From positions 9,585,977-9,649,976 of the forward strand of contig OW203989.1 of the NCBI GenBank assembly GCA_934047225.1: 64,000 bases of DNA. Direction: 5' to 3'. Shown piece by piece: positions 19,878-57,042 of the stretch. Made by a program: the position numbers and the translations under genes. The DNA comes from Ypsolopha sequella (lineage: Eukaryota; Arthropoda; Insecta; Lepidoptera; Ypsolophidae). Positions within the stretch are counted from its first letter, which is position 1, and every line of letters begins with the position of its first letter. Below the pieces are notes generated by a model, which ran no database searches, had not been told where the DNA came from, and was given only the letters and a program-made list of their open reading frames with translations.

Positions 19878-20109
19878 CTCAATTAGCTTTTTATTTATAA
19901 TTACACAATATAACTTTAAAAAGATATACAATAAATAAAAGAAAATTTAAAACTTGAAATATATTTCGGCCCTTAGTGGGCCGTCATCAGTCAAGACTTG
20001 ACTAAGGGCCGAAATATATTTCAAGTTTTAAATTTTCTTTTATTTATTGTATATATTTAAAGTATTGTATATATTTATATTGTGTAATTATAAATAAAAA
20101 GCTAATTGA
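19878..20109. repeat. Near-perfect palindrome with 54-bp exact arms
   Basis: Positions 19924-19977 and 20001-20054 are exact reverse complements over 54 bases around a 23-base spacer. Outside them AATTAGCTTTTTATTTATAA and its complement extend the pairing after an insertion of about 18 bases on the right. The left arm and spacer contain the hammerhead-like motif at 19953-19995. Confidence 0.9.
19953..19995 (-). ncRNA. Hammerhead-like ribozyme motif 1
   Basis: Read on the minus strand it has stem I CTTGA, core CTGATGA, one C, stem II GGCCC with loop ACTAA and GGGCC, then GAA, ATATAT, T and the stem I partner TCAAG. Stem I (5 bp) and stem II (5 bp) are perfect. The canonical hammerhead core is CUGANGA...GAAA with cleavage after UH. 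Here one extra C lies before stem II, or G12 is paired, so activity is uncertain. Confidence 0.55.
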
Positions 20110-20906
20110 GGCATATTATATATTTATTATTTAATATCTGTATTTCAAAAATTAAAAGAACCATCTTAAGTTGTGCGTTTCGTAGAGGATACGAATCGTT
20201 CCCCCTTAATAACTTTTACACTTTGGGAATAAACCTGAAGAGATATTTACAGTAATGCGATAATCTGTTATCGTTAAAATTAACGATTACTGCCAACATT
20301 TGATCTCAGATTCGAATTTAAGACAGATAAGTCATTGTTATTTGAAATAGATTTGAAAGTTACTTTTTGATGTGGTGGCTTTTGATTTAAATTTTTAGGT
20401 ACATCGTTTTGATTTTTAAAAATTTTACGCATTTTGTCTATGATATAGTTTTGATCACCGTTTTTCTTAAAAAATAAATTAACATTATTATTGTATTATT
20501 ATAGCAATTTAGTTTAGTTTAGGTAATTCTGATTTTAGCAGCGATTTACAAGGTGAAAACCATCCGAATTCATACAAGACACTCGATTAGTGATCAGGAA
20601 CAAGGTTCAATGATCCTTTGTTTCGAAGTCATGAAAAAATATTTTTTGTTCCCATACGAACTCTACTAGTTCAAATACAATCTTGCTACTGCCTACGGGA
20701 GAAGTATGAATTCGGGCGGTCAATTAAATTTTCCCTTATAGAGTCATAGGTTAGGATTATTGGTACAAAAAATGCTTATTGTTATGCAGCAAAAAAAATA
20801 AAAGCTTTTACTTTCTAGATGTTGGTTGTGTGAGTAAGAGTTTGGATGTGTAAACGTGTGAAACAAAAAATTAAATAAATATCTCTTAGGTTGAGTATTT
20901 AGCCTT
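20110..20906. other. Unassigned sequence with a rearranged dispersed block
   Basis: GATCAGGAACAAGGTTCAAT near 20598 is the reverse complement of part of 28531-28556, while TTCGGGCGGTCAATT near 20713 matches 28576-28594 directly. This looks like a rearranged fragment of the same repeat family. Confidence 0.35.
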
Positions 20907-21350
20907 TAAGCTTAAATTTGGTATATAACCAGTGCGTCCTTCCGGCTTCCAGTGATGACGTACGGCGCTGAGACGTGGTCTCTTACCAAAGGCTTGATCC
21001 GCCAACGAACTATGGAGCGAGCTATGCTTGGGATATCTTTGATGGATAAAATCCGAAACGAAAATATCCGTCAGAGATCGAAGGTGACCGGCATAGCCTG
21101 CCGAATCAGTAAGTTGAAGTGGCAGTGGACTGGCCATATTTGTCACCGACGTGATAACCGTTGGGGGCGTAAGGCATTGGAATGGAGACCACGTACAGCT
21201 AAGCGCAGCGTAGGCCGCCCTCGTGCCCGCTGGACTGACGATCTGAAGGACGTTGCGGGTGGCGGCTGGACGAGGATCACTGAGGACCGCCAAGAGTGGC
21301 GTAATATTGGGGATTCCTATGTCCAGCAGTGGACGAATACGGGCTGATGG
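20907..21350 (+). pseudogene. RTE-type LINE 3' fragment
   Basis: It is the C-terminal part of a non-LTR endonuclease/reverse transcriptase. One continuous frame from about 20930 encodes VMTYGAETWSLTKGLIRQR, then MERAMLGISLMDKIRNE, KWQWTGHICHRRDNRWG, RPRARWTDDLKDVAGGGW, EWRNIG and VQQWTNTG, followed by TGA and an ATGG-type tail. The endonuclease domain and the catalytic RT motifs are missing, so it is 5'-truncated as most LINE copies are. The open frame suggests a fairly young insertion. The clade is inferred from the tail and family features. Confidence 0.85.
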
Positions 21351-21510
21351 ATGAGGTTGAGTATTGGTGGTGACGTGTCAGTGTGTTTGTGAATTTTCAA
21401 AAATGTAGGTAGATATCTATCTAAGCAGCCATTATATCAGCCCAATGTTAGACCTTCAAATTGTAGCATCTTCCTTTTCACGCCAACTTTTTTTTATCTT
21501 TAGCCCGTCA

Positions 21511-21974
21511 GGTACACTCAGTGCTGCCAGATGAGCGCATTTCGCGCCAGATCTAGCGCTTTTTTTGACCACTTAGCGCTCAAAATTCGTTTTTAGCGCC
21601 TAGCGGAAAATCTAGCGCTATTTCAAAATGAGCTTTGTTTCATTATTTTTGGCGCTTTTTCGGAATAATTTTGGGAAATCTAGCGCTATTTTGGTATGTA
21701 TTTTGTTTCAGTGATGATAATTCATTTAATTTGGTATACAATTTCATCATCTTATATATATCATTATATTCTTTACGGTTCTATAAATGACGTATTTTAC
21801 TGAAAAGCCAATCAAATGCAATCAGCTAATCAATAAGGCCACCAATATACAACATATAAATAGCGCTTCTTCTGGCGCTTTTTTATAAAAATTTATGTTT
21901 AGTGGAATCTAGCGCTTTTTTACATCGGAGTTAGCGCGCAACACTCGATTAGAGGTGGCAGCCCTGGGTACACT
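21511..21974. mobile_element. Non-autonomous hAT element with exact 8-bp TSD
   Basis: The direct repeat GGTACACT at 21511-21518 and 21967-21974 flanks 21519-21966. The termini are CAGTGCTGCCA on the left and, reverse-complemented, CAGGGCTGCCA on the right. An 8-bp duplication with CAG...CTG ends defines hAT. The 448-bp interior carries about nine AGCGC cores, mostly in CTAGCGCT context, spread along the whole element. No transposase is encoded. Confidence 0.9.
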
Positions 21975-23547
21975 GCTTTCCAGCTATTTTGCAATGTTGT
22001 TGGCTAATCAAGCTGGTAGTCTGAACACTGACCATTGTCTTGATGAAGGTCCGTTTTCTCATAGTATGGAGTGTACACATCCCCACTTCAATATTCGATT
22101 CATCCGATTATGTTCATCAGTATAATATGTACTCGTATCTGAATACACTACGTGGTATATTTACATATATGGATACGAGTACTCATAATATGTATGACAT
22201 ACAAAATACATAGAAACCTCAACAAACAGCGCTCAAACGTGGATACATAAATTATTACAATACACATCCCGCATAATCAAATGGACCATCTATGCTATTC
22301 CGCAAAACCAAACAAATATATCCACTGTTATTATCTACTTAAGGATGTTACAAATGGAATAAACTATTTATGGATCTGCAGATCTATGCAGCAACTATTT
22401 TCCAACTAAGCTACGCGGAATTCAGTACGTAAGCGAATGATGAATTATGGAAACTCGACATAAGCCGCAAACACACAGTCATATAGTTTGTTTTTATTTG
22501 GAAGTTGGTTGATGAATTCTTTATTTGCGGACAAAAACTATATTTTATCCTGTGACCACTTCACTCTACAATGCTTAGATGTTTCTGTATACGTAGAGAG
22601 CGTTAAGAGGATGGCCTACCCTAGAAACTTTTTTATTACCCGTCCAGCACATGACCAATGACAAAGACCTCATTTGCTTTTGATAGAGGCGATTATATGT
22701 TGGCAAATTGGCCTCTTTTTCTTGGACGCGTAATACTAGTGATCACGCAACGAAAGAACAAATTGGTGTGTTTTTAGCTAATATTGAAATATTTTGTAGG
22801 GAAAATAGAATTCCTTCATATTTTTATTACTGATTTTATTTAAAAAAAAACAAAGTTGATTGAAAAGCAGAAAAAAAGAGGGTGGAAAACTTTTTTATTT
22901 GCAAAAGTATAAAACTTTATACATTGTTTATTAGTATAATATGTAGATAAAAGATCAATGAATCAAATATATTTTCTTCAATATCAGGAGAGACCTAGTT
23001 TCCCAATGAACCCTTGAAAACCTGACGTTGTTGATGTTCTAGCGCCAGGTATCCCGTTAATCGAATTTGCCATTAAAACGCGGTATTATTTAATTTGTAT
23101 TTTGTTATTTTGCAATGAATTTAGCCGAATTCGGTTATGTTTGTGCTCAATCGAATGTTGGATACTGGGACCGAAAACACTCCAAATGTATTCAAATAAC
23201 AAAAACCGGCTCCCGAATTCAGTTAAAATGTCCAACTATGAACAAGCTTTTTAGAGCTGAAGGTTTTTGGGTCGCCAAAGTTTTGTCTGGTGTTTTCAGA
23301 GCAGTTTCGGTGATTACGTTTTAAGCATATGCCTTGTGTGAAGGCAGTTGAGAATTTAAGCTTATTTTATAATGAGAAATTTAGAAGCTGAAAAGGAATT
23401 TCACATTTTAGGTTTTGGGTTACTCTGTTTGTCTTAGTGTATCAGGTAAAACCGTGTACTGAGTTACAAAATAATCTGTTACAAATTATAATCCTGGATT
23501 ATAATTACAATCCTGGCATTATTTTTCACTCGTAATATCAGCCATTC
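21975..23547. other. Unassigned sequence
   Basis: An ATG-initiated frame at 23115-23324 (69 codons) has no recognised family. A related block (GGTTTTTGGGTC...TTCAGAGAAGC) occurs near 24826-24866, suggesting it is repeat-derived. Confidence 0.4.
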
Positions 23548-23690
23548 GTTTTTAGGGTTCCGTACACAAAGGGCAAGACGGAGCCGTCTATCTGTCAGTC
23601 TATCTGTTTGTCCGTCCGTATGTCACGAATAATGAATTGAAAATGTTATTAAATTATTTTCAGGGGGGGGCCTCATACATAAAAATGGAG
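23548..23690. repeat. GGTTCCGTAC-family repeat, partial
   Basis: TTTAGGGTTCCGTACACAAA, GGGCAAGACGGAGCC and a TCTGTCAGTCTATCTGTTTG run match the 3' side of the longer copies at 42956-43313 and 54828-55100. Confidence 0.6.
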
Positions 23691-24195
23691 CCGATATTTT
23701 TTTTTCCTGCTCTAGCATGTAAGGTATCTAGAGCTTATTTCGTAGAGTATAAATATATTTTTAATGTTTTTAATCCGCAAAAATAAACAAAAAGGGGTTG
23801 TTATTTTTAGACCATTTTTGTTACAGGGTCTATATCAGCGACCAAAGTATTTAGGAATTTATAACTTCCTAAAATTATGTATCATATGCTGTATTTAAAC
23901 AACAAATACTGAAAATGCCGATTTTTATGTAGTTTTAGGGATACGTTGCCGGATAGTCAACGTTTTGTTTAAAACAGTTTGTAATTTCTGTTTTTTGTTT
24001 CTTACCAATTCAGCTATCGATTCATACCTTTTTTTTATTCCGGATACTTTTTACTCGGTTCTTCTTCTCTCTTTTTCTTCTGTCGTCAATTTAGTCTACA
24101 AAATGTCCTTTAATCCTTAGATTACGAGCCCGCCGCGTGTGCGCAACGTGTTCATCACGAGCTCGTGACGTTCGATCCGCGTTTTGTACGTAACA
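23691..24195. other. Unassigned sequence
   Basis: AT-rich with poly-T tracts. A GC-richer GCCCGCCGCGTGTGCGC block lies near 24129. Confidence 0.4.
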
Positions 24196-24198
24196 AAA

Positions 24199-24252
24199 TG
24201 GATTCGGAGAAGGAAACACTGCTATTAGCTTTGCTACTTCTAAAACGTTAAT
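24199..24252 (+). pseudogene. Possible Harbinger-like transposase start
   Basis: An ATG opens MDSEKETLLLALLLLKR and then stops. Short acidic-then-leucine-rich starts of this sort are familiar from PIF/Harbinger (HARBI1-like) nuclease genes of insects. The stretch is very short and this is only a suggestion. Confidence 0.2.
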
Positions 24253-25611
24253 AAAAATTTAAAAAAAAAACATACAGGCAAGCATTATTATATTTGTTTC
24301 AATTGAATCTTTTCATTAATAATTACGTCGTGCAGCATCAAAATTAAATACAAATGTAATAATATTCGATATAAGACGTTATTTTCTGTGTGTTTTACTG
24401 ACTGAAAATAAAGTAACGTATCGTTATAAATAACGTTTTAGTCTTTTTATAATGTTCGACATCTTCGACATTTCGATATCCCTCAAAACATGCTCGCAAA
24501 TCGCTAGTGTGATAACGCCCTTGCAGATTAATTAGATTTTACAAGAAAATTGCGGGCTGAATTAATTAATTGTGTTTGCTTATTAAATGTCTAACAAAAT
24601 CTCTCAGAAACTGAGTGGGTCTTTGGTTTGAACAAAAGTCAACAAGCTCGGGCTGTTTCATTGCGAGACTCTACGGCGTCTTACCTTTTATCCTTCCACT
24701 TAATGAATCCAAATTAATATTGCAAAATGAAATGTCTTTTAGAAAAAATATTAATTAATATGTAAAATTCCTTTTTGTATTACGAGTATTCAACTTTTTG
24801 TCTTCAAAAAAATGGCTAGACAAATTGGTTTTTGGGTCATTTTTGTAAGGTTTTTCAGAGAAGCAATAACGGAGGTTGCTCACTGGAATAAAAAGTAAAC
24901 ATTGTTTCAGCCTGTGCCTGAAATTCGGGCTCAAAGGTTCCTGTGTTTTTTTTTATTCAAGTCAATATAGCTTTGTTCTTCCTGAACTAAATGCCTCAGT
25001 TGTTCCATCATGAAGAGTTTTCCTTTGTGTGATACGAGGCGCTATCTATAAGCTATTCCGCAAATCCGATGCAAGAATGGCGTAATTGCAAGGTACATAA
25101 TTTTATAACAAAGGCAAATTAATATTTAAGTAGTATTTTTTTCATAATGTTTGAGTATCACCATCGTTTTTGGTGATTGAATAGTGACTTGCTTGAACAA
25201 TTATCTAAATAACCGATTATTTAAATATTCAGATAGTATTTGAAATAATCCTCCAATTTAACTTTAAATAAATTTCAACATAAATTTTCATTGTACAACA
25301 GTTATGTCCAGTAAGTAATGGTTTATTAAATAAAAGAATATTTTTCCATTAATTTTTTTAGAATTATTAAGCTTACATTATACAGAAATTGAACTAACAC
25401 TAACAATTAGGAAAAATAGTAATTTCAGTAATTTTCATTTTTCTACACGACAATTGCTTTTTTCTTGCGCTATCGAAGTGCATGAAGATGAAGGCTCCAA
25501 TCACTTGCATTTTCGGCGGGTTCGCATAACGGCCCAATCAGGCGTTGTTGTCGGTGGCATTAGCGAAGTAACCTGAAGGCAAATAGTCAAACTAGTGTTT
25601 TGTCATTCTTG
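24253..25611. other. Unassigned AT-rich sequence
   Basis: No supported feature. Confidence 0.4.
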
Positions 25612-25980
25612 CACTGAGTCCATCCATCAGCCTTGTTTTTCCACTGCTGGACATAAGCCTTTCCAGGACTTTGCCACTCCCGGCGGTCATCCTGGAAGAA
25701 TTTCCCATAATCACACACGCTGAGGCGGGTTGGTGAGCGCGGTGCCGGAACCCTCGCACCAGTGACGCCACTGCCCGTCACCGGTCTGATCCATATAAGG
25801 CCCGGCTATTAGGGATGGATATACCGCCATCCATCGGTCCCAGGCATGATGGGCCTCATGGTTTTTTGCCTGTGAGCTATCCTCTTACTCTCCCCCGAAT
25901 TACTTCAAGGGGGTCTCCAAGTAAGATGGTGGTACCTCCAAAGTCGAGCCCGGCAACGGCTCTACCACCTGTTAACCGGC
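25612..25980 (-). mobile_element. RTE-related non-LTR 3' element (family B)
   Basis: On the minus strand it runs from the CCGTTGCCGGGCTCGACTTT region to the tail GTCCAGCAGTGGA...GCTGATGGATGGAC. It is colinear with 7086-7879 and 63125-63505. The AGTCCTGGAAAGGC join is intact here and gives the empty site for the MITE insertion at 7398. Confidence 0.8.
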
Positions 25981-26439
25981 AACAGCACTACCACCTGCAC
26001 TGGGTAAAAAGTATGTTTTCAAGACTTCATTGTTGTATACATTACTCATAATTAAAAAAATTACAATTGCGTCATTCTTGCACCGGATTTGTGATACATT
26101 CAACAATAAAATAAAAACGTGAAAAGCTCAGGGAAGGGAACAAAAGTTTACATTATCATATACGTAAGAAAAGCACAATAAACTACGGTTAACTGTGAAA
26201 AGATAAATTATGTGTATCTGGTTAGTCTCATGAAACTGCAACGAAACGTCTTGTTCGTAGAAACTTTCATAATGTTCAGGGATACACTGAGTGCAAAACT
26301 TTCATAACGTTCAGGGACACACTGAGAGCAAAACATTTTGAATGCTATATTACGTTCAAGTTCACACTTTTATTTGTAGCAGTTTAATAAAAGTTCTAAT
26401 GCTGAAAGTAAAACACATACTTAAAATAATATTTGTTGA
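25981..26439. other. Unassigned sequence with a 35-bp tandem duplication
   Basis: Two adjacent 35-bp units start CTTTCATAATGTTCAGGGAT at 26264 and CTTTCATAACGTTCAGGGAC at 26299. Nothing else was seen. Confidence 0.5.
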
Positions 26440-27240
26440 AATGCGAGTCAAACTTGCGCACGAAGGATTCCGTCCATCCATACATCAGCCCGTATTCATC
26501 CACTGCTGGACATAGGCCTCCCCAATATTACGCCACTCTTGGCGGTCCTCAGTCATCCTCATCCAGCCGCCACCCGCAACGTCCTTCAGATCGTCAGTCC
26601 AGCGGGCACGAAAGCGGCCTACGCTGCGCTTTGCTGTACGTGGTCTCCATTCCAATGCCTTACGGCCCCAACGGTTATCATGTCGGCGACAAAAATGGCC
26701 AGTCCACTGCCACCTTAACTTACTGATTCGGCAGGATATGTCGGTCACCTTCGATCTCTGACGGATATCTTCGTTTCGGATTTTATCCATAGCATAGCCC
26801 GCTCTATAGCTCGCTGAGCGACCTTAAATCAAGCCTTTAGTAAGAGACCACGTCTCAGCGCCGTACGTCATCACTGGAAGGACGCACTGGTTATATATTT
26901 TAGAGTTTAAGCACTGCGGTATTGGTGACGTAAATATTTGACGCAACTTCCCGAATGCTGCCCACTCTAAGCATATTCTTCTGTCAGCCTCGAAGTTGAA
27001 GTTGTTTTTACACAGCTGGATAGCTTGACCCAGGTAAACATATTCATATAACTTCGATGCTGACATTATCGACGGTTACTGGCCTTTGGATGAAATGACA
27101 GTTGAAAGGATTCCGTACTACCACACAATGCAGGTACGGAACCCTAAAACATGATACTAAATGAAAACAATATAAAAATCACGGCGACAAAAAACAAGGC
27201 GCTAAAATGGTAGTGCCTGACAAACAATTTGGCACCTTCT
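26440..27240. repeat. GTGCGAGT...CGCGCACG-family repeat hosting an RTE insertion
   Basis: The left part is TGCGAGTCAAACTTGCGCAC up to 26473. The right part from 27106 contains GGTACGGAACCCTAAAAC and GCCTGACAAACAATTTGGC. Joined, they match the copy at 43326-43525. The RTE fragment at 26474-27105 splits it. Confidence 0.7.
26474..27105 (-). mobile_element. 5'-truncated RTE LINE with 11-bp TSD
   Basis: The direct repeat AAGGATTCCGT at 26463-26473 and 27106-27116 flanks the insert. On the minus strand the insert encodes SASKLYEYVYLGQAIQL, RICLEWAAFGKLRQIF, QCVLPVMTYGAETWSLTKGL and then, after a stop/frameshift near 26825, MDKIRNEDIRQRSKVTD through RARWTDDLKDVAGGGW, VQQWMNTG and the ATGG tail. 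It is the C-terminal part of a non-LTR reverse transcriptase protein, lacking endonuclease and RT catalytic motifs. It is broken and non-functional. Its 3' end points left. Confidence 0.88.
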
Positions 27241-28480
27241 GGGTACGAAAAAGCATGGAATTTTATTTATTTACACTTTTATTATTTGTACAGCATTAAA
27301 TACAGAATCCAGTGTACTGTACAATTAGGTTTTTACAAGTATAAGATTTATACTTATTTAATAAAAACTCACAAATGTACAGTTTACACATAACATTAAA
27401 TTTCAACATATGGCAGTACAAAATTATTTAATCTAATATTTTTAATGTAGGAACATAATCACAGAAGCTTTCTTTCTCACAAAACCTTAAGCACTCACGC
27501 ATAAATCTGTCAAAAAAAGATCTGTCAGTCGCTAAGCGCAAAGTGCATAACTTTACTTTTTTTTTCTTATTTAGATATGTGGCAATCAATTGGATCGTGC
27601 TCGAGTGTAATTATTTGTTGATTTACTTTAATTTTTGAGTACATAGTACTACAATCTGACCAAATTTTAAACTTGTTTGTATCACCTATTATAGAATTAA
27701 ATGAAACTTGAGGATAATTCATGATTTATATAAAAACGGCTCACCTCAATACGTGTAATGATCGGGAAAGCCGACCAGTTTCATCTGGGCGAGTGAAGAC
27801 GTTTACGCGACGACGTTACGCCTCACACTTATATAAATCTTGTTTGTAACACCGTTTCAAAAAAAGATCTGAAATAAGTAAAGTTGCAGAAATTAATTTT
27901 TCGAGTTTTTTTTGTATACGAAAACACTTTTAATTTATTCCAATTTTCAATTTATTTTAATTTTAATTTTATTTTTATTTTTTCAGGAAAACAAATTCTA
28001 TATAGATATCACTTACATAAATTACTATTAAAACTATTTGACCTAGAGTTCCTTAAATGCTTACTTATATTTTAGAGTAACAAAAACGAAACGGTACGGT
28101 ATGGTGCTTACAAAAAACATAATAATTATAATTATAATTTATTATAGGTTATAATTTAATTAAGTAGTATAATTTCCTAACTTATGATTCCTCTAAGGTG
28201 TAAACTGTACAGACTGTAAAAGGAAAAAGACTATATGAAACATGTAGACAAAGATATATGTATATGTTTTTCTTTTTTTCATCAACCTGAATTTCCTGCT
28301 GTCTTGTATCTTCTTATCCCTTGGTTAAAGTAGATATAAGTAATGTGTATAGTTTAAGTTTTATGTTGGAAAAAAAAACATGATCTAGCTAAGTTTCTTG
28401 CCCTTCTTCTTAGCAAGACTAATCGAATGGGCAGAGGTAGGCATGTATTTATATATGTAACCTATTAGTATGTAGTATAT
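27241..28480. other. Unassigned AT-rich sequence
   Basis: Long T- and A-rich tracts (27880-27990, 28105-28155). No supported gene. Confidence 0.4.
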
Positions 28481-29569: not shown

Positions 29570-29905
29570 ATTACTGTCCCTGATAGAAGCCACAGTAAAA
29601 CATATTCTGTGAAAATTTCAACTGGCTACCTATTACAGCTGAAGCTGCAGACCCCTGTGACAGACGGGGCTCTACCGCGTAATTCTCATTTGTATCAACT
29701 TCAAGCAAATGCATGCGAAATTCAACGCGTGCAAAAGAGATGGCATGTTAGGCGGGTGTCGTCGCACGCACGACAAATTTCAATCTCAAGTTGATATTGA
29801 TGAAAATGAGAATTACGCGGTAGACCCCACGGACGGACGAACAGCGGATAGCAATAAGATCCCGTTAGCTACCCTTCGTTTATGGAACCCTAACAACGGA
29901 ATACA
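29570..29905 (+). repeat. GGTTCCGTAC-family repeat with nested MITE
   Basis: TCTGTGAAAATTTCAACTGG, CTGTGACAGAC and then, after 29828, GACGAACAGCGGATAGCAAT and TGGAACCCTAA match 54980-55100. The nested element is 29666-29828. Confidence 0.7.
29666..29828. mobile_element. 163-bp MITE with GGTCTACCGCGTAATTCTCAT ends (copy 1)
   Basis: Left GGGGCTCTACCGCGTAATTC and reverse-complemented right GGGGTCTACCGCGTAATTC continue as TCATTT. It is nested inside another repeat, which shows it is a mobile unit. The peptide-like frame containing DENENYAVDP is part of the right terminus in every copy and is not a gene. Confidence 0.85.
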
Positions 29906-30128
29906 CGAAAATAAAGTTTCGCAATCCTCTATCAAAACAGGTTGAAATATACATAGGTACAGAAAAGCTTTTGACGACGCACATAATATCCGATCAATAT
30001 TTCTGTCAGTGACCCATAATAACATTCTGTGGACATGCACGAGTAGATACAATAACAGTCTAGCCGTAACTAACCATTTACCTGAAGACAACCACAGTGT
30101 TAACCACAGTGTACCACAAACATTCAGT

Positions 30129-30290
30129 GGGTCTACCGCGTAATTCTCATTTTCATCAACATCAACTTGAGATTGAAATTTGTCGTGCGTGCGACGACGC
30201 CCGCCTGACATGCCATCTCTTTTGCACGCGTTGAATTTCGCATGCATTTGCTTGAAGTTGATACAAATGAGAATTAAGCGGTAGAGCCCC
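30129..30290. mobile_element. Same MITE family, inverted orientation (copy 2)
   Basis: It starts GGGTCTACCGCGTAATTCTC and ends GCGGTAGAGCCCC. The whole sequence is the reverse complement of 29666-29828 with few differences, forming a large inverted pair with it. Confidence 0.85.
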
Positions 30291-30395
30291 AGGTCGTTCT
30301 AGTTTCTAGTTAGTGAAAAGGTAAAACATGGAGATCTAGATTTAAACAACTACAACCGCTAAATGTCCCCAAACCTATGTTTTAACACAATCCCT

Positions 30396-31345: not shown

Positions 31346-31622
31346 TATTATTTAAGGTTGCATATAAAGTCAGATTGAGCACCTCATTTTGCATTAATCA
31401 GAACTGAACTCTATAACTTTTCTTAAGCCGCGGCTGTTTCGATCACTAAGAAACACGCGCTCTCGAAAAACAGAGCTTTTATTTAATAATTACTCGGCTT
31501 CTAGATGAAATTATTAATTGGGCGGGGTTATTTGTTTACTTATTTTTAATAAATTTTGAAAATTGACTTTTTGTCTTTTAAATGATTATAATTACATAGA
31601 AAAACCGTTAAATGAAAATTTT

Positions 31623-31667
31623 TTGTGAGATATATTTCGGGCCTTTCGAGCCCGGCATCAGTCACAA
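31623..31667 (-). ncRNA. Hammerhead-like ribozyme motif 2
   Basis: On the minus strand it has stem I TTGTGA, core CTGATG then C, stem II CGGGC with a 7-base loop and GCCCG, then AAATATAT, C and the partner TCACAA. Stem I is 6 bp and perfect but of different sequence from motif 1. Core position 9 is C and not A, so this copy may be inactive. Confidence 0.5.
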
Positions 31668-31781
31668 TGAAATAATGAAATTATAGTAGATAGATAGAAA
31701 AAAAATTATTTAAATTTTTATGTGTCCCTTGTTTAAGGAAGGGATCATCATATCAATCATCCCTTGATTTTTCTATTAGTA

Positions 31782-31827
31782 TATTTACTGATGACGGGTC
31801 CAGGTCGGACCCGAAATATATCTTAAA
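31782..31827 (+). ncRNA. Hammerhead-like ribozyme motif 3
   Basis: Core CTGATGA (31788-31794), stem II CGGGTCC with loop AGGTC and GGACCCG, then AAATATAT and C. Stem II is 7 bp with different bases from the other copies. Stem I (TATTTA with TTAAA) pairs only partly. Confidence 0.45.
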
Positions 31828-38576: not shown

Positions 38577-39004
38577 TTAAGAGTGGTTTCGCAGCCGGAT
38601 TGTGAAAAACCCGCTATTTCCTAATTAATCGAAACAGGACACTTATATTTAAAATTCACTCAATAGTTATTCAACAAAATCTTATGTGTATTCTAAAATT
38701 TTGAAACACTAATTTACAGAAACCAATGGAAACTTTGCAATGGCAGCAAACACCATATAAGGTTTTGTTGAATAACTATTGAGTGATTTTAGAATTTAAC
38801 GGTGTTACTACAAAACCGTGTTTAACTTTAGACAGTGTTTAAATATGTTGCTGTCACTTATTGTAATGAAAGAAAAGGCGACAACAACACATTTAAACAC
38901 TGTCTAAAGTTAAACACCGTTTTGTAGTAGTACCGTAAATGTTCTAATTCGATTAATTAGAAAAACGTGGGTTTTTCACAATCCGGCTGCAAAACCCCTC
39001 TTAA
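38577..39004. mobile_element. TTAA-ended foldback with three stems
   Basis: The outer arms are TTAAGAGTGGTTTCGCAGCC and its inverted counterpart GGCTGCAAAACCCCTCTTAA. A second internal pair is TCACTCAATAGTTATTCAAC (38658) with GTTGAATAACTATTGAGTGA (38767). A third is the nested element 38800-38935. The diverged copy at 47577 has the first two pairs but not the third. Confidence 0.8.
38800..38935. mobile_element. Nested 136-bp foldback MITE
   Basis: Arms of about 57 bases begin ACGGTGTTACTACAAAACCG and, reverse-complemented, ACGGTACTACTACAAAACGG. They share TTTAACTTTAGACAGTGTTT. It is absent from the related host copy at 47577-47815. Confidence 0.8.
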
Positions 39005-42955: not shown

Positions 42956-43313
42956 TAGCTTTTTAGGGTTCTGTAATAAACAGGACCCTATTACTAAGAC
43001 TCCGCTATCCGTCTGTCTGTCCATCTGTCTATCCGCCTATCTGTCCGTCTGTCTGTCCGTCTGTCTGTCCGTCTGTCTGTCCGTCTGTTATCAGGCTCTA
43101 TCTCATGATCCGTGATAGTTACACAGTTGAAATTTTCACAGATGATATTTTTATTTATATATTTATTTCTGTTGCCGCTGTAACAACAAATACTTAAAAA
43201 ACAGAATAAAATAAATATTGACAGACAGACATGTTTTTTTTTGCCGTTTTTATAGATAATGGTACGGAACCCTACGTGCGCAAGTCCAACTCGCATTTGG
43301 CCGGTTTATTAGA
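42956..43313 (-). repeat. Full-length GTGCGAGT...GGTTCCGTAC-family repeat
   Basis: One end is TTTAGGGTTCTGTAATAAAC and the other is GGTACGGAACCCTACGTGCG...GTCCAACTCGCATTTGGCC. A (TCTGTCCG)n tract lies at 43010-43090. The Arg/Thr/Asp-rich frame across it is a microsatellite by-product. Confidence 0.75.
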
Positions 43314-43325
43314 CTTTGCTTTAAA

Positions 43326-43525
43326 AATCATTTGAGCAAGTGCGAGTTGGACTCGCGCACAAAGGAGTCCGTATCACCAAACAATACGGGTAAGGAACCC
43401 TAAAAAAATTATGGTAAATAACAATATTATAGATGCCATGGTAACATTGAGGGGACAAAAACAAGCCTCAAAAATGCTAACGTCTGGCAAACAATTCACG
43501 GCTCCCGCTGAGTAAGGAACCCTAT
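43326..43525 (+). repeat. Variant of the GTGCGAGT repeat
   Basis: AAGTGCGAGTTGGACTCGCG, GGTAAGGAACCCTAAAAAAA and CTGGCAAACAATTCACGGC match the element split by the RTE at 26440-27240. Confidence 0.65.
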
Positions 43526-44554: not shown

Positions 44555-44598
44555 TCCAACTGATGCCGGGCCCAGTGGGGCCCAAAATATATCTTGGA
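44555..44598 (+). ncRNA. Hammerhead-like ribozyme motif 4
   Basis: Stem I TCCAA, core CTGATGC, C, stem II GGGCCC with loop AGTG and GGGCCC, then AAAATATAT, C and the partner TTGGA. Stems I (5 bp) and II (6 bp) are perfect with their own bases. The core has C at position 9 and lacks the G before AAA, so this copy is likely inactive. Confidence 0.45.
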
Positions 44599-45102: not shown

Positions 45103-45104
45103 TA

Positions 45105-47815: not shown

Positions 47816-47997
47816 TCTCAAATGCGTCGCCTTGTTTATTTTGAACAAGTTTCCTCAAGAGATGTGTTTAGATGAAATAGCCCAAGAGCATGTTAGTTCT
47901 TATTTTGCAGATTTAAAATTTAATCCGAATAAAAAATCTTTGGGTGTGTAATTTTTCAAGTTACCAAGAAAAAGCTTTAGATATTAGAAAAAAAAGC

Positions 47998-49252: not shown

Positions 49253-49284
49253 CGGCTATGAAGAACTGCTAATAGTATTGTCAT

Positions 49285-49455
49285 GCTAGCGTCCGTACGT
49301 CACGACAAAATCCTCGAAAGGTGTCAGAGGTATTGTCGAGTGCGAACTATGAATTGTAAGTCTGTCCACACTCGTACACCCACTTTTAACTGACGATTAT
49401 TACGTACTAGTGTGATGGTTGGTGAGTTCTATCGCCGTATTTTTCGCACAGCTGG
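49285..49455 (-). repeat. SINE family B 3' fragment
   Basis: GTACGTCACGACAAAATCC, AAGGTGTCAGAGGTATTG, CACACTCGTACACCCAC and GTTCTATCGCCGTATTT follow the order of the copy at 37487-37630. Confidence 0.6.
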
Positions 49456-49520
49456 ACCACAAATATGGACACACAGATGGACCACAAATATGGATCCACA
49501 GCTGGACCACAAATACGAGA
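49447..49520. repeat. 25-bp tandem repeat, three units
   Basis: Units CACAGCTGGACCACAAATAT start at 49447, 49472 and 49497 with exact 25-base spacing. Confidence 0.85.
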
Positions 49521-49525
49521 TGTCT

Positions 49526-50655
49526 GGACCAATAGACCATCAGAGTATTGTTTACATTTCAAGATAAATAAAAGTAGAGAAAACTAAACTTCAAGTTCTT
49601 GAAATTAAAGGTATATATATATACGCCATTTAAATATGTTTGTTTAAATAAATAAAAACTTGCATATGTTTATATAAAAATACGTTTTCATTGTATATAA
49701 AAATAATAAGGAACATGAATTTGACTGATACGTAAAAGAAATGATATTATAAATATAACCTTAGTTCCCTTGGTTCATAATTGAATATCTTTAATATCTT
49801 TATCTTTAATATCTTCTTTAATATTTAATCTTTAACAACTTACTTTACGAATTTAATAGTACCGTAAATGGGTTAAACTTCCTTTTGTAAGCGCAAAACA
49901 TGCCATCAAACTATTTTATCATTAGATTTATCAGTAATACACCTCTGGGATCCCTTTCGACCACGTCCGGCCTTTATCTCCACTGCAAGACCCAAAACAC
50001 CAACGTGTCATTATTAGAGGTCAGAAGTGTTGAAACTTCCCTGACTACACAATAGACAAACAACGTACAAAGTAAATTTTACCTAACAAAGGTCACCGCC
50101 TCTTTCCCTTGCCCTTTCATAACTAATGACCTGTTAAAGGGACGCGCATGCCCTCATTTAAACCTTTTATAAAACTGACGTAGAAGCATGGTCATAGACA
50201 AGTTGATATTTTTTCTTTAAAAGAGCGCCGAGCAAAATAATCTTAAACGATAGTCACTGTTAAATTGATGTAATGAATAATATTTCAATGATAAATAAAT
50301 AAAATATATATTTATTATCACAGAGAATGTATCTACACTTCCGCCGCAGCGAATATTAAAAATTACTTATGGTGTAAGAAACAAATCTATCTAAAGTAGG
50401 CTCAAAATCTAAAAAAGATATTGGGGTTTTAGTAATTTCAATAACTTCACTGTCGAATTTTGTCTCAACCACAATTCAAGACAATCACAAACGTTATAAA
50501 ATACAACTGGGCCGTTTCACATTTTTTAAATTCTGTCTGGTAAATTAAATATGATTTTTTTCTGTTAAATTCAATAAAAACGACCACAATAAAAATGACC
50601 ACAAGAGAGCAAGCGAGGTGTCTAATCGTTCTACGCTCGGCGCAGCCTTAAGCAA
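49526..50655. other. Unassigned AT-rich sequence
   Basis: Contains a short repeated TTTAATATCT run near 49790-49825. No gene seen. Confidence 0.4.
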
Positions 50656-50913
50656 AGTTCTATGTATAACATAGAACCTTGTTATACTACAAATAAATAA
50701 AAACCAAAATGGAATGGTTCTATGTTTAACATAGAACTTAGTTATTTTATTCGTAAATTAAAAACAACATAGAACTATGTAAAATTGAATATTTTGTATT
50801 AAATGGGCTGCCATCTAGTGGTACACCTTTGCAAAAATATAGCTAATGACACATAGAACCTTGTAGCATAAATAATTTAAAAAGTGCTAAAATTGTAACA
50901 TAGAACCTTGTAA
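50656..50913. repeat. Cluster of seven ACATAGAAC motifs
   Basis: ACATAGAAC or its complement GTTCTATGT occurs seven times in about 260 bases, often followed by CTTGT. The first two and the next two form inverted pairs around TATAAC and TTAAC. Confidence 0.75.
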
Positions 50914-51748
50914 CAGTGAGCCAGCGAAATATTATAAATTTTAATTTTCGTAAAGTTTTCTCTAATGAGAAAAGAATCATTGGAAAGTGACTGCATTTTA
51001 AATCTTTAAAGTTGTGTAAATAGCTCAACATTGAAAAATATCATAAGTATTTAAAAGAAACCTCGATTTCTACAAAACTTTAGCACGGTTAAAGATAAAA
51101 ACTTCAAATTTGGCAAAAAAAATAGCATTAATTCGCTCACATAAAACGGTGTAAAAAAATGAAAATCTTGAAATTGTTCAAAATATTTCCAATACAAAAG
51201 AAAAAAAAAAACTAAAAATACAATATGGGTATTAAATTGTAGATATTAAAGAGCTGATTTCAAGGAAGCTTTGAAAATTGTATGTCCCCCTTATCTCCAA
51301 AACCTGTGGACCAAAAAAATATGAAAAAAATCTCGACATAAGTCACAACTGGCCAATTGAACACAAATAAGCAATATAAAAAGTTAAATTATTAAAAATA
51401 TATTTTATAAAAATACATTATGGATATCAAATTGTATGATTAAAAAGTGAATTGTAAAAATATTTTGTTTGGCTGTATTTATTCCCATCTATTTCGAGAA
51501 ATCCTCAAAAAATATGAAAAAAAAACAGGGTAATATGTGCTTACGTAAAAATTACAGGAAAAATATAGCCGTTGAGAAATCCACGAAAACAAAATGACAA
51601 CATTAATTTTTCATCCACTGTACAGAATCCTAGGTACAAGAGTCTGACTTTTTTATTATTTTATATTATTTGATTAGTGTACGTAAAAGTATTTTATTTT
51701 ATACGTACCTTATACACCTTTGTTTTAGATATAAATTGTAGGGCATAT
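50914..51748. other. Unassigned AT-rich sequence
   Basis: Poly-A-rich. No supported feature. Confidence 0.4.
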
Positions 51749-52116
51749 TAGTAGTTTATGCTACAAGGGCGAAAAGGAATAAATTACGAGGACGATTTAA
51801 AACACGAACGTAGCGAGTGTTTTAAACGTAACCGAGTAATTTATTGCTCTTACGCCCGTGTATCATACTACGTTTTTCAATGCATAGTGTGAGGAAATAA
51901 AACAAATATAATCTTGTAAACTTTAAATTATGATTGGCTCAAAAGGACTGTATCCAGAGCCGTTAAACAGTGGGGAAAAAAAGTATAACATTTATGGTGC
52001 ACAGGAAAGGCTGCAGGTTAGCCAACCATTGTAAAAAAATAAAATAAAAAATAATCGACTTTCTGTTCGGTTTTGATGCATAAAAAGTGGGCCTTTACGA
52101 GCACTTGCATTGAAAG
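51749..52116 (+). mobile_element. Interspersed repeat A (copy 3)
   Basis: Starts TAGTAGTTTATGCTACAAGG, retains ACACGAACGTAGCGAGTGTT and ends near GCATTGAAAGA. Confidence 0.75.
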
Positions 52117-52652
52117 ATATATTATGAATTCAATAATTGCACCGATAAATGCACCAATCACACGTTTATTTTCTTTTGGAATCCGATAAAGCGACAATCA
52201 CAGGCTTCATTGCGTATGTTACTGGACAAAGTTTGACAGACACCACCTGCTATAAAATCATCCACCGCATCCACCGCTCGGATATATATAAATACATACT
52301 ATTTCAGTATGTTCCAGGTAGTATGTATATTTAACAATATGTAATATCCTAGCTTTTAAGTCTACCTTTGATCAAAAGCTTAAAGCATCGTTCATGAAGC
52401 GTCACTTAAGCGAATATTAGCTGAAGGATGCAGCTGAAGCGTAGCCTTTACGGAACACTCGCTCAATTGATTTTCATCTCTATTAAAGGGCGCTAGAGTC
52501 TTGTTTGCTACTTTCAAGTATATTTTATACCTAATTTTGAGCTAACACTTATATGAGCTCTTAATATAAAATACGACGTTGCCTAACGCAATACCTATTT
52601 AGCTTTAAAAATGGAAGCAAATTTTCAAAAAATAAAGACGATAATACGCAAA
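52117..52652. other. Unassigned sequence
   Basis: A 61-codon frame from the ATG at 52149 is not recognised. Confidence 0.35.
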
Positions 52653-53060
52653 TAGGGTTACCATTTAGGAATTTCAAAAGTCCTGACAAAAAGCCTGACA
52701 TTTCGATAAAAGTTCGGACTTTTTAGTCACAAAATGGAAAAATTACTCACTTAGTTACAATGGTATGGTAGGCATGGTAGCATAACAATATAAACATTAA
52801 TATGATGTTTGATTTAGTTGATTGTTTGCAAATTTTGCAATAGAAGATTTATTGTTTGATCTCTTAATTTGAGTGTTAAGAAGATTTTATATTTTGTTTT
52901 TAGATAAATGAGAAGTTAATAAAGAAAAGACTTATTTGATATTACTTAATATGTAATTTTATTACTAATATTAAAAATCTGGTCAAATTAAAGAACCGGA
53001 CAAAGTCCGGACTACAATCTAAAAGTCTGGACATGTCCGAACTAATCCGGACGGACCCTA
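52653..53060. mobile_element. Possible hAT-like MITE with GTCCGGAC motifs
   Basis: One end reads TAGGGTTACCATTTAGG and the other GGACGGACCCTA. Near both ends GTCCGGAC-type motifs recur (CCTGAC, TTCGGAC, CCGGACAAAGTCCGGAC, GTCTGGACATGTCCG, AATCCGGAC). No clear target duplication was found. Confidence 0.5.
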
Positions 53061-53710
53061 TCAAACGGAAAAATTGCAAGCAATTTCAGTTGTCTAAGTA
53101 CTAAATCAAAGAAAGTGGTAACAAGGTTGGGAGTTCAATGTTTTCTCTCATTTAGCTATGAATGCAATAATTTGGTAAACAGAAAAGCTATAACCCAAAC
53201 TTCCTCTTTAAAATTGGTCGTAAAGAAAATGTTTTGTAAATTTCCACACTTTCGCCTCCCTAATTAAAATCATTTACTGCGGGAAATAAATAAAAAATGT
53301 TGATATGATTTCAATATCAACAAGGAAATCCGTAGATATTCTAACTCTTTTGATTATCGTTACCAATAGACTAAAATGATCTTGACAGATTACAAGTTGG
53401 TAAAACTTTTCTAAATACACCTTTAGTCCGGTCACGCGAGTTTGAAAGATAACTATTATACTTCACGTACCAATGTTATTAAATATTTCGTGAATAAAAC
53501 GAATACTCCGTTTAAAATTAATTTCTTGCTGGCACCAAAAAAGAACAAAACAATTTAATATGCACGAATAGACGCCAAGGCCGCGGAAAACAAAAGGAAA
53601 AATCTCGGAACTGATGAATGTGTCGAGGGCTCTTCAGTCTTTACGAGGACAGTACTGTTGACTGTCGCAGTACATTTACTGTGATATATAGTGGGTTCAT
53701 GTTAGAAAGG
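53061..53710. other. Unassigned sequence
   Basis: No supported feature. Confidence 0.4.
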
Positions 53711-54138
53711 TTAAGGCGTTACGGAAAAAAATCGACACTTTAAGAACTGATATGCAAGTTCTTCGGTAAATAATACATTATTTTGATAAAATAGTATATT
53801 AATTTTGGAATCTTTTTCTAGGGATCTGTTAAAACAGAAACGCGATTGGAGAAATTCGGCTCGATAGAAATATTTATTGAAATTAAGTCTTTTTCGACAT
53901 CAATTCTCCTGGTTTGACAATTTAGAAGGACATAATGGACACCAATTATATTTTATTAGATGGGTTTTAACGGTATCTAGAACCTGGTTAAACGAAATTA
54001 TGATAGCAACTGTAGTACATTTTATATTAATAAAAAACCGATTTTTTGCTACTTTTCCACGAATCCGTCCTTCTCGCTCTGAGGGTTTTTTCGCATATGG
54101 AGTAACAGGGACGCTAAAACTTTTACATATCGCCTTAA
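53711..54138. mobile_element. TTAA-terminated MITE (copy 4 of 5)
   Basis: Starts TTAAGGCGTTACGG and ends CATATCGCCTTAA. It shares AACGCGATTGGAGAAATTCG with the inverted copy at 61097. A 105-codon frame across it is not a gene. Confidence 0.8.
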
Positions 54139-54493
54139 TACCGAAGCCTGGAACATTGTGGACTGACCTACGTACTCGTAAATTTCATGTTTAGCTGCAC
54201 TGAGCGAATATCCGATGCTATACTACGTTTAGCGAGATGATGGAAAGCCAGTCATTCCTCCGATTGTCACCAGCCGCCCCAGCCGCGTCAAAAAAAATGC
54301 CGCCGTCTCGACAAAAAAGAAGCCTCTGACTGCTCGTGACCTAACCCTCTTATCATGATAACAAAGTGTAGTTGCATTTTATAACAAAAGTCATACTTGT
54401 CGAAAGTACCGTTTTCTTAAATTAATTAGCATAAGACCGAGGGGTGAATAGACCGCTTTGCATTGTCTCGCTAAATACAGTATATAACTGTTT
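54139..54493. other. Unassigned sequence
   Basis: No supported feature. Confidence 0.4.
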
Positions 54494-54815
54494 TTTATTT
54501 TACAAACAGCGGTATCTCTGTTGGTAGGACCCTGAACTTTCAATCTTGAAACCCGGGTTCGAATTATTTTACAAGCAGCGGTATCTCTGTTGGTAGGACC
54601 CTGAACTTTCAATCTTGAAACCCGGGTTCGAATCCTGTCCAGTAGAGTATACAACAATAAGCTTTTCGGAATTTATGTACAAAGTATTTATTTAAACTCA
54701 ATACCACTTGCTGAACGGTGAAAGCAAACACTGAGAGGTAAACCTGCATGCCCTAAAAGAAGTGTATTTTTACATCAAATACGGCGATAAGGTTCATCCT
54801 CTTATTACGTTAGGA
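54494..54815 (+). repeat. SINE family B with duplicated tRNA-like head
   Basis: The head unit with AGCGGTATCTCTGTTGGTAG and GGGTTCGAA is present twice in tandem (54498-54566 and 54567-54635, period 69, nearly identical). The body has ACCACTTGCTGAACGGTGAA and CCTGCATGCCCTAAAAG. The minus-strand frame at 54391-54657 reflects the duplication. Confidence 0.8.
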
Positions 54816-54827
54816 TATTAAAACCAG

Positions 54828-55100
54828 CCAAGTGCGAGTCGGACTCGCGCACGAAAGGTTTCGTACCATTATCTATAAAAACGGCAAAAAAAATCACGTT
54901 TGTTGTATGGGAGCCCCCTTTAATATTTATTTTAGTCTGTTTTTAGTATTTGTTGTTTTAGCGGCAACAGAAATACATCATCTGTGAAAATTTCAACTGT
55001 CTAACTGTCACGGTTCATGAGATACAGCCTGGTGACAGACGGACAGCGGAGTCTTAGTAATAGGGTCCCGTTGGTTACCCTTTGGGTACGGAACCCTAAA
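54828..55100 (+). repeat. Full-length GTGCGAGT...GGTTCCGTAC-family repeat
   Basis: Starts CCAAGTGCGAGTCGGACTCG, contains CACGGTTCATGAGATACAGC and GTGACAGACGGACAGCGGAG, and ends GGGTACGGAACCCTAAAAA. It gives the family order used for other fragments. Confidence 0.8.
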
Positions 55101-56145
55101 AATCGACGGTGAAATGCTGGTATGTGAGTGTTGAATGTTCCAATAACAGTCCTCGTGCCTATTTAGACAATCTTGGACTATATTCGTTTATGAATACTCT
55201 ATATTTTAGTTATTCTATGCAATGTGTGGATATTACACTCAATGGTCGAGGTTTAACGACTTTTTTATGAGGGACCGGAGCCGAACCGACTCAGTCGATG
55301 CTTGCTACTTGTGGCTGTAAACAATGACAAAACTCTTAAGGGGGATTCTTCCGATTTTGTCTCTTTTCAAACTCATTCTAAACCATGAAATTGTGATTAT
55401 AAAATTTTGAAAAAATTTATTTTCTATTTTAACTATTTGATCTTTATACTTCGGACGTTTGATACCCGATTACATGCATTTTCATGCATTCAATAAAATC
55501 TAAACTATGATCCAAGTATCTTTTCATTCGGTTTAATTAGGTTTTGGACAATAAAACAAATAAACGTCGTACAAAATAAGATATAAGACGGCCTTCGTAT
55601 TAAAAACTCGTCCTTCTTATTCCAAAATAATAAATAAAAACATCTTGGAACAGCGAGATTTTTGAGCGGCCCGCTTCCACTATGCAGGACAGACAAGCGT
55701 AAAATGAATGCGTTGGAACATGACAGATTTCTCGGAAAATCTTCGCCTTAAGAGCACGGGTGACCCGATATGCATGCATTTCGCATCAAGTAGAACTGAA
55801 CTCTATAACTTTTCATAGTAGCACGCTCTGAGCATTGGCTGTTACGAATATCACGAGCTTTTGAAAAACTGAGTTTTTATTAAACTCTGCTTCTAGTTGA
55901 AATAAAAACACGATTTTTTCAAACCAGCTATAAATATCATCCAAACAAATTTTATAACGAAACAACCAACTATATCCTGAAATCGATGTTTTAGAGAAAG
56001 TCAATAAGAACTATAAAATAGATTTAAATAGAGGGTAACAGAAGATTTTGTTTACAGTAATAAATAAATTATTTGACGAGGTTCGTTATAACTTCCTTTG
56101 TAAACGTTAGAAAAACATGGGTATTTTTTTTTGCGTTGACCTGGT
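55101..56145. other. Mostly unassigned; 55795-55905 repeated elsewhere
   Basis: AGAACTGAACTCTATAACTT, GCTTTTGAAAAACTGAG and TCTGCTTCTAGTTGAAAT recur at 31395-31515. Otherwise no feature is seen. Confidence 0.45.
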
Positions 56146-56213
56146 GGTCTACCGCGTAATTCTGATTTTCATCAACATCAACTTGAGATTGAAATTTGAC
56201 GTGCGTGCAAAAG
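56146..56213. mobile_element. Truncated copy of the GGTCTACCGCG MITE
   Basis: GGTCTACCGCGTAATTCTGA through AACTTGAGATTGAAATTTGA matches one end of 30129-30290. It stops at the junction with repeat A. Confidence 0.75.
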
Positions 56214-56537
56214 AGTGTTTTAAACGTAACCGAGTAATTTATTGCTTTTACGCCCATGTATCATACTACGTTTTTCAATGCATAGTGTGAGGAAATGAAA
56301 ACAAATATAATCTTGTGAACTTTAAATTATAATTGACTCAAAAGGACTGTATCCAGAGCCGTTAAACAGTGGAAAAAAAAGTATTACATCTATGGTACAC
56401 AGGAAAGGCTGCAGGTTAGCCAACCATTGTAAATAAATAAAAAAAATAATAATAAAGCCCTAGGGCAAAATAATCGACTTTCTGGTCGGTTTTGATGCAT
56501 AAAAAGTGGGCCTTTACGAGCACATGCATTGAAAAAT
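56212..56537 (+). mobile_element. Interspersed repeat A (copy 4, 5'-truncated)
   Basis: Begins at AGAGTGTTTTAAACGTAACC and ends near GCATTGAAAAA. The first ~75 bases of the element are missing. Confidence 0.7.
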
Positions 56538-56699
56538 TAGTTAAAAACAGATACCTACTCTCAAATGTATATAGGAAAATGACATTTTGCCGTCATTTTG
56601 AAGGTCTTAGGGCAGCAAAAGCAAAAGTTGAATGACTGATATTATTACAAGTAAAAATAAGTGACGCTAAAATGCTTAACTTTAGAAATAAAATAATTA

Positions 56700-56915
56700 C
56701 TAATTTTATGTTTATTTTGCGAAATCCATCGCTATGAATACTCTAAATATTATCAGAGTGCAATTCAAACTAGAAAAGATCAATCAGAAACAAACCCAAA
56801 GACAAGAATATGAAAAATTCCCCGGGCCAGGATTCGAACCTGCGACCTCTTGTTATCAAGACAAGCGCGCTACCAATTGCGCCACCGAGGTTCCTACCTG
56901 GACCGGTGAATTCTT
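56700..56915 (-). repeat. tRNA-derived SINE, family A (best single copy)
   Basis: On the minus strand the head has ACCTCGGTGGCGCAATTGGT, CTTGTCTTGATAACAAG (anticodon-arm-like) and GGTTCGAATCCTGGCCCGGG. Then comes the TTGTCTTTGGGTTTG body and the tail ending at CGATGGATTTCGC. It serves as the reference for 2041 and 5774. Confidence 0.8.
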
Positions 56916-57003
56916 CCATCATACTTGTCCACTGTTATTTTTGCTTCTGCCTGATTACTAATTTCATTTAATTAATTCAGTGGATTTGAGAAATTGTATC
57001 AAA

Positions 57004-57042
57004 TTCCACTGAAGCCGACTACATGTCGAAATATATCTGGAA
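57004..57042 (+). ncRNA. Hammerhead-like ribozyme motif 5
   Basis: Stem I TTCCA, core CTGAAGC, stem II CGAC with loop TACAT and GTCG, then AAATATAT, C and the partner TGGAA. Both stems are perfect. The region just upstream (56978-57014) can form a competing 14-bp hairpin, TTCAGTGGATTTGA with TCAAATTCCACTGAA. Confidence 0.5.

Follow-up and report, generated by a model that had tools for sequence, protein, structure and literature searches.

Hammerhead-like motifs dispersed in the genome of the moth Ypsolopha sequella: a probable RNA-structured 3′ part of Penelope-like elements

The window analysed here is a stretch of 64,000 nucleotides of the Ypsolopha sequella genome (Lepidoptera, Ypsolophidae; assembly GCA_934047225.1, contig OW203989.1, positions 9,585,977 to 9,649,976) that carries five dispersed hammerhead-like motifs. 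These are best explained as the RNA-structured 3′ part of lepidopteran Penelope-like elements (PLEs), a reading that we hold, together with the copying and dimer steps described below, at a probability of about 0.78. The pattern CTGAWGN{8,38}AAATATATY was matched five times in the window against a mean of 0.07 in shuffled sequence, and none of 100 shuffles reached five. The cores lie at 19958-19990(-), 31629-31661(-), 31788-31822(+), 44560-44593(+) and 57009-57037(+), with the stem I arms immediately outside. An initial annotation, made from the letters of the window, had placed all five motifs correctly and had rightly described their stem I arms as different from copy to copy and self-complementary in four of the five.

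Pattern scans of the genome covered 866.8 Mb in 151 contigs, and the first 100 matches of a scan were listed individually. CTGAWGN{4,30}GAAATATATY gave 12,586 matches, compared with 49 for the reversed pattern; CTGATGMCGGN{6,20}CCGAAA gave 7,951 matches compared with 0, and TATATY continues 6,678 of them. A covariance model (R1), of the kind that the initial annotation had proposed, was built from 46 copies, comprising 41 copies from other loci and the five window motifs. It recovered the latter at 49-60 bits, scores that are no independent test for training sequences, the independent evidence being the genome count, and it added one partial motif at 19996-20026(+) with 18.8 bits. As a negative control, R1 was run on 40 of 80 listed stretches (345 kb of viral contigs preselected by a loose motif pattern) and returned 13 matches up to E 1, the best at 21.3 bits. 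The strict motif pattern had no match in the viral contigs, the at least 120 stretches matched by the loose pattern are probably due to chance, and no PLE relatives were found there. The Rfam search that had also been proposed matched none of the five window motifs, either at gathering cut-offs or at E up to 10; the sole Rfam hammerhead match in the window (HH10 at 43262-43407) lies away from the motifs and far below the cut-off. This result tells only that the Rfam models do not cover the variant, and an abundant class of hammerhead-like motifs accordingly escapes them.

The fold was analysed on 66 motif matches, which a script extracted from the window together with 41 loci, each 3-4 kb long. 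Alignment A1 retains 46 copies, the 20 rows left out being duplicates, three odd copies and register-shifted subfamilies. In A1, pairing holds for 83.9% of the stem I and stem II cells, and the two stems contain 136 double-changed cells against a shuffled mean of 53.8, with none of 500 shuffles as high; when the partner columns were slid by 1-3, at most 34 such cells were counted. The shuffles ignore relatedness and the slides retain it. Two of five measures, namely the number of pairs with a double change and the further pair types, were not above the shuffles. RNAalifold recovered both stems unaided, with seven pairs. CUGAWG and GAAAUAUAUY are constant in part because the search pattern required them, whereas it left stem I, the base at position 9 and stem II unconstrained, and the substitutions in the aligned copies indicate that a hammerhead-like fold is clearly maintained by selection. 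The covariation that had been proposed from five copies therefore holds on 46, as does the layout suggested with it: type I, with paired and covarying stems I and II and a minimal palindromic stem III.

The sample of 46 contains ten types of stem I arm, one of them perhaps decayed. In subfamilies with CGA directly after AUAUAU, stem I (UCGA/UCGA) begins two bases earlier, which leaves AUAU as palindrome followed by an unpaired A, or by U in one relative; the palindrome and the NUH site are thus retained while the letters move. An NUH triplet fits in the motifs found, the register-shifted subfamilies included, although the patterns and the descriptor required it. Dimers were calculated to be favoured over two monomers by about -2.4 kcal/mol in nine of the ten types and by -0.9 in one, a difference that is not decisive, and the predicted minimum free energy structure of the monomer is a fold different from the hammerhead.

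The core, numbered by the hammerhead convention, departs from the canonical one. After CUGAWG, position 9 is C in 45, A in 20 and G in one of the 66 matches, and the next base is C in 66 of 66, a figure biased by the choice of loci by eye and the omission of a few C-less matches. Among the 100 matches listed, 92 have this extra C, and four of the eight without it are 21-nt matches. Genome-wide, 1,610 of the 12,586 matches are C-less (41 in the reversed control). Of these, 44 of 100 listed places are 21-nt matches such as CTGATGAGGCCGAAATATATC, and when six 21-nt matches were cross-compared, five were found inside a longer copy with the C and one inside a copy without it. Many of the other 56 look like C-to-T changes, and two small groups of listed C-less matches (five and three places) do not resemble the motif. 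Five listed C-less places on contigs C1 and C2 (e.g. C1:7709189, C1:25203680 and C2:7913910) share CTGATGAGGGCATCAnATAGACTGAAATATATC, which fits the pattern, has no clear stem II and is perhaps another repeat. The extra C can pair with G12 in 44 of 46 A1 copies, in agreement with the extra C or paired G12 noticed initially. G12 is the general base of the hammerhead and is contacted by A9, so that by analogy this pairing should hinder catalysis. A descriptor scan of 80 fetched loci with variable stem III returned 63 motifs with the extra C and no canonical one (0 and 0 in the reversed sequences); some of these loci overlap, some motifs count twice, and most of the loci were picked by eye from extra-C matches, the 30 GIY-YIG loci described below being the exception. 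The palindrome is AUAUAU in 53 of the 63, AUAU in nine and AUAUUU in one, most loci having been chosen with AUAUAU in the pattern, which bears out the palindrome assigned to the place of stem III. No report of the extra C was found in the portions of the literature surveyed, which did not include Cervera and de la Pena 2014 or Lunse et al. 2017.

The link to PLEs, which had been put forward from resemblance, was found within the same genome. A search for the GIY-YIG family, in which 150 of 1,484 candidates were scored, gave at least 49 places, all above the cut-off. In 22 of the 30 best of these 49 loci a motif lies downstream of the open reading frame (ORF) on the same strand, 19 being recognized by pattern and three (L164, L183 and L185) by R1; L170/L171 and L175/L176 are each two halves of one pair and hence not independent. 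Loci L193 and L194 have open frames of 922 aa with reverse transcriptase (RT) and GIY-YIG matches and the motif 3′ of them. Domain scores were 27.7 bits for RVT_1 (cut-off 29.6) and 28.5 bits for GIY-YIG (cut-off 22.6) in L193, and 34.9 and 17.7 bits, respectively, against the same cut-offs in L201, one match in each therefore being below its cut-off. Protein homologues reach 52% over the full length and contain the RT domain and, in some, GIY-YIG; the closest named one is from a leafhopper (46%). The motif follows the stop codon by about 260 nt in L193 and 325 nt in L201. L194 consists of two elements head to head in an 8.2-kb palindrome, with motif and tail at both outer ends. The 3′ untranslated region of both its arms (about 850-1180 and the mirror position) has a long (ATC)n tract, where most of the differences between the arms are found.

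L201 represents a second PLE family, with 68% protein identity to the first. It contains two 3.8-kb units head to tail that are 99.6% alike. Motifs flank both ORF copies on either side; one copy is open over 920 aa and the other is split into frames of 524 and 438 aa. Pseudo-LTRs (LTR, long terminal repeat) surround the ORF in L201, whereas none were seen in L193 or L194. Apart from the ORF, the motif is the sole part that aligns between L201 and the first family (47 nt, 89%). Both tandem units also have an open frame of 128 aa in the interval from the motif to the PLE ORF (L201:629-1012 and 4448-4831).

Among 97 of the 100 listed places there are 16 neighbours within 600 nt, where 0.84 would be expected by chance; 14 are divergent, two are on the same strand and none is convergent. 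By their letters, 13 of the 14 divergent pairs look like one subfamily, the mixed pair being L149, for which a flanking repeat was not seen. One of the two same-strand cases joins two different subfamilies and the other lies inside the nested locus L157. In L157:1501-1699, four motifs of alternating orientation occupy 200 bp, as if an inverted insertion had been duplicated or invaded by a second one, and in L140:1407-1536 half motifs are repeated between two full ones, which suggests template slips inside stem II during reverse transcription. The GIY-YIG places (at least 49) include eight close divergent pairs and no convergent pair. Exact direct repeats of 12-16 bp flank nine of 20 inverted pairs, compared with five of 380 mismatched flank combinations; these nine at least are therefore single insertions, and the repeats correspond to the target-site duplication that is a trait of PLEs. 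The two tails differ in length in all nine. A good part of the inverted pairs thus consists of two units head to head within one direct repeat, that is, one insertion. Tails extend past the predicted cleavage site by about 13-130 nt (lower bounds) in common with other loci. Most sampled copies consist of the motif and such a common tail, so reverse transcription mostly ran through the motif from the 3′ side.

Table 1. Motif copies, hammerhead-tail units and flanking repeats in the window
Feature	Position	Strand	Evidence
Left 13-bp direct repeat (TTATTTAATATCT), likely target-site duplication	19867..19879	+	Sequence comparison of flanks
Insertion of 247 bp holding a divergent (head-to-head) inverted pair of hammerhead-tail units	19880..20126	.	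Self inverted repeat and flanking repeat
Hammerhead-like motif (stem I CUUGA/UCAAG); predicted cut after U19958	19952..19996	-	54.0 bits (R1, training sequence)
Internally deleted mate of motif 19952..19996	19996..20026	+	18.8 bits; mirror position
Right 13-bp direct repeat	20127..20139	+	Sequence comparison of flanks
Hammerhead-tail unit, subfamily GUGA/UCAC	31548..31677	-	Homology to L150, L125, L121
Hammerhead-like motif (stem I UUGUGA/UCACAA); predicted cut after C31629	31623..31667	-	59.7 bits
Hammerhead-tail unit, subfamily UUUAA/UUAAA	31770..31927	+	97.5% to L134 over 159 nt
Hammerhead-like motif (stem I decayed); predicted cut after C31822	31782..31828	+	55.0 bits
Hammerhead-like motif (stem I UCCAA/UUGGA, G12 to A); predicted cut after C44593	44554..44599	+	59.1 bits
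Solo hammerhead-tail unit, subfamily UUCCA/UGGAA	56991..57099	+	93.6% to L144 over 109 nt
Hammerhead-like motif (stem I UUCCA/UGGAA, stem II short); predicted cut after C57037	57003..57043	+	49.3 bits

The window copies (Table 1) illustrate several of these forms. The 247-bp insertion has a self inverted repeat of 80% over 291 nt and relatives in L157 and L129; its partial motif shows, by eye, a 14-nt deletion between CT repeats. The two units at 31.6-31.8 kb are mutually divergent, belong to different subfamilies and have no flanking direct repeat above 7 bp. The poor stem I pairing that had been recorded for the 31782 copy is present and looks like decay of this copy, as judged from its closest sampled relative (L134), which has one A more and a perfect UUUAA/UUAAA stem I. 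Similarly, the AAA in place of GAA at 44555 is present, but it looks like decay of G12: in one stem II context counted genome-wide, 342 copies have a base other than G and 6,678 have G, and the former are spread over many subfamilies among the 100 matches listed. In this 44.5-kb copy the letters of stem II are those of the tandem PLE L201, and stem I is near-identical. A six-frame Pfam scan found no PLE protein remnants adjoining the window copies (one sub-threshold ApoL match, E 0.2), nor did tblastn of the L193 protein against the whole window.

Other repeats also populate the window. A fragment of a long interspersed nuclear element (LINE) at 20916-21344 has its named best matches in Plutella, Colias, Pararge and other moths and butterflies. 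The tRNA matches at 5931-6003(+) and 56819-56891(-) sit inside longer mutual repeats (e.g. 5907-6009 and 56813-56915, inverted, 91%) and look like a dispersed repeat and not like plain tRNA genes. A 48-bp tandem repeat (x7, 98% matches) at 4236-4574 has several frames open. Long near-perfect hairpins at 29666-30290, 62342-62610, 38819-38916 and 18974-19134 are probably foldback elements; two of them measure 162 nt at 98% and 107 nt at 93%, and the two others were noticed via weak microRNA models.

In the mechanism that we propose, the PLE RNA would fold as a type I hammerhead with the palindrome AUAUAU (or AUAU) as stem III, and a double hammerhead could form from two copies in a tandem transcript or from two RNAs. 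Cleavage directly 3′ of the base next to the palindrome could then free unit-length RNA from tandem arrays. The extra C, which can pair with G12, together with the C that mostly occupies position 9, would be expected to render cleavage slow or conditional, so that enough uncut RNA survives as template. Truncation at the 5′ side often leaves little beyond motif and tail. For the inverted pairs, the simplest account would be priming at both ends of a double-strand cut, with self-priming as the alternative. On present evidence, and judging by sequence, the motif may be classed as PLE-borne and hammerhead-like, and it appears to behave like the minimal PLE hammerheads that pair via a palindromic stem III. 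It is filed as hammerhead-like and not as a proven ribozyme since no canonical core was found in the fetched loci and cleavage is a prediction.

Several observations weigh against this reading. The putative ribozyme cleavage is deduced from a predicted site, and the core is non-canonical, the sequence CUGANGA...GAA with nothing between A9 and stem II not being found in the 80 fetched loci. In 79 of 89 copies the sequence runs on past the predicted cleavage site into a tail that another locus shares (extension score 12 or more), from which it follows that the templates were mostly uncut RNA and that their reverse transcription for the most part began 3′ of the motif; no pile-up of copy ends at the predicted site was seen in these 89. 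Ten of the 89 have no such common tail, including the minus-strand unit of L160, which ends at or within 1 nt of the cleavage site as defined by its direct repeat; L196 may do likewise. Eight of the 30 GIY-YIG loci have no clear motif within the fetched 3.1 kb (L167 gave a 22.5-bit match only, near background), and 5′ of the L193 and L194 ORFs the fetched stretch contains neither a motif nor a direct repeat, unlike the usual pseudo-LTR layout. Eleven of the 20 inverted pairs have no direct repeat of 12 bp, and the copies at 31.6-31.8 kb, being of different subfamilies and lacking a common direct repeat, may be two separate insertions. Finally, the 18.8 bits of the sixth motif in the window are below the best background match; it was accepted because it is the mirror mate of the motif at 19952-19996(-) within one inverted insertion flanked by a 13-bp repeat.

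Among the alternatives, the inverted pairs could also have arisen by self-priming, that is, by snap-back of one cDNA instead of priming from two RNAs, and we regard this as having somewhat less than an even chance. In 10 of 15 pairs each arm has its partner as best match among the sampled pairs, a comparison with few same-subfamily comparators and, for some pairs, none, and the L194 arms are 99.5% identical over 4,110 nt, compared with 98.7% for the next best sampled GIY-YIG locus. Against a snap-back, in the remaining five an arm from a different locus matches at least as well, the tails end differently in every one of the nine pairs with direct repeats, and L194 has a loop of some 30-40 nt and unequal 5′ ends. 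Head-to-head PLEs with palindromic junctions in the rotifer Adineta vaga have been explained by self-priming (PMC3846280); the lizard (Anolis) PLE protein, on the other hand, cleaves and extends both strands in vitro (PMC11167929), which makes two-ended priming an alternative. In combination, the arm and tail data appear to favour neither route strongly. More doubtful, yet still to be taken seriously, is a retired ribozyme whose fold is kept for RNA pairing or binding of the PLE protein after loss of catalysis. It would accommodate the C opposite G12 and the C at position 9 in most copies, the absence of a canonical core from the fetched loci, the mostly uncut templates and a lizard PLE insertion in vitro that does not depend on cleavage (PMC11167929). 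However, CUGAWG, GAA, the palindrome and one unpaired base accompany ten stem I types and two PLE families, and a pure pairing element would not need the full core, the constancy of which is admittedly in part built into the search patterns.

A third alternative, a retrozyme (a non-autonomous element that propagates through small circular RNAs), might be suggested by the thousands of short motifs and the window copies without an ORF, and retrozyme-like repeats had been considered initially. This is very improbable, given only two same-strand neighbours within 600 nt among the 97 listed places and a tandem (L201) whose 3.8-kb units carry a PLE ORF. A hairpin acting at the DNA level, or a foldback transposon with an incidental RNA fold, seems next to negligible: palindromes do house many copies, but covarying stems with unpaired core letters between them are in keeping with an RNA fold, and RT and GIY-YIG ORFs precede the motif. 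No transposase or Rep partner turned up in Pfam scans near the window copies, and no wider search was made.

Within the PLE reading, a more specific role may be modelled, in which the PLE hammerhead of this lineage would act chiefly as a homodimer tag that serves insertion from two ends; we consider it unlikely. In computed double hammerheads, the two stem I helices have 10 pairs on average for partners of the same subfamily and 4.2 for mixed partners, and since in such a dimer the two stem I helices are intermolecular, as is the palindromic stem III, RNAs of the same subfamily match best. If the model were true, two like templates would be brought to both ends of one cut, giving mostly homotypic head-to-head insertions; it would also explain a stem I that is self-complementary yet diversifying and a catalytic centre that drifts under a kept fold, and the G12-C pair would be a catch that keeps templates uncut. 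The resource for such work consists of more than 12,000 motif copies, ten stem I types, two PLE families with long frames and insertion ends that record where reverse transcription started, and three ideas are open to direct test: release of unit RNA by cleavage, protein binding and pairing of two templates.

The hammerhead cores of the newt satellite and of avocado sunblotch viroid (ASBVd) are canonical or nearly so. Their double hammerheads share with the moth motifs a weak helix III and a palindrome and are active as dimers, but their helix III has one to three pairs (PMC6155905, PMC6466107, PMC7229834). Metazoan non-LTR retrozymes likewise have type I hammerheads in short non-coding repeats; they differ in forming tandem repeats of 150-450 bp with, in most invertebrates, an efficient monomer ribozyme (PMC7229834), and tandems of this kind were not seen in the sampled loci. 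The PLEs of Adineta vaga and Anolis (PMC3846280, PMC11167929) share with those of the moth RT and a C-terminal GIY-YIG, head-to-head copies, one-side tail extension, a short target duplication and reverse transcription that starts internally, 3′ of the hammerhead. In Anolis the hammerhead overlaps the start of the ORF (PMC11167929), whereas in the moth it lies after the stop codon; L193 and L194, unlike the rotifer and lizard elements, show no 5′ pseudo-LTR. The closest resemblance is to the minimal type I hammerheads of PLEs, which according to two reviews have an almost absent helix III, are ready to dimerize and are dispersed in thousands of copies in animal genomes (PMC6155905, PMC7761336). 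The moth motifs share with them the type I layout, the near-absent helix III, the location in PLEs and the thousands of dispersed copies, and, compared via these reviews, differ in the extra C that can pair with G12 and in the C that mostly occupies position 9.

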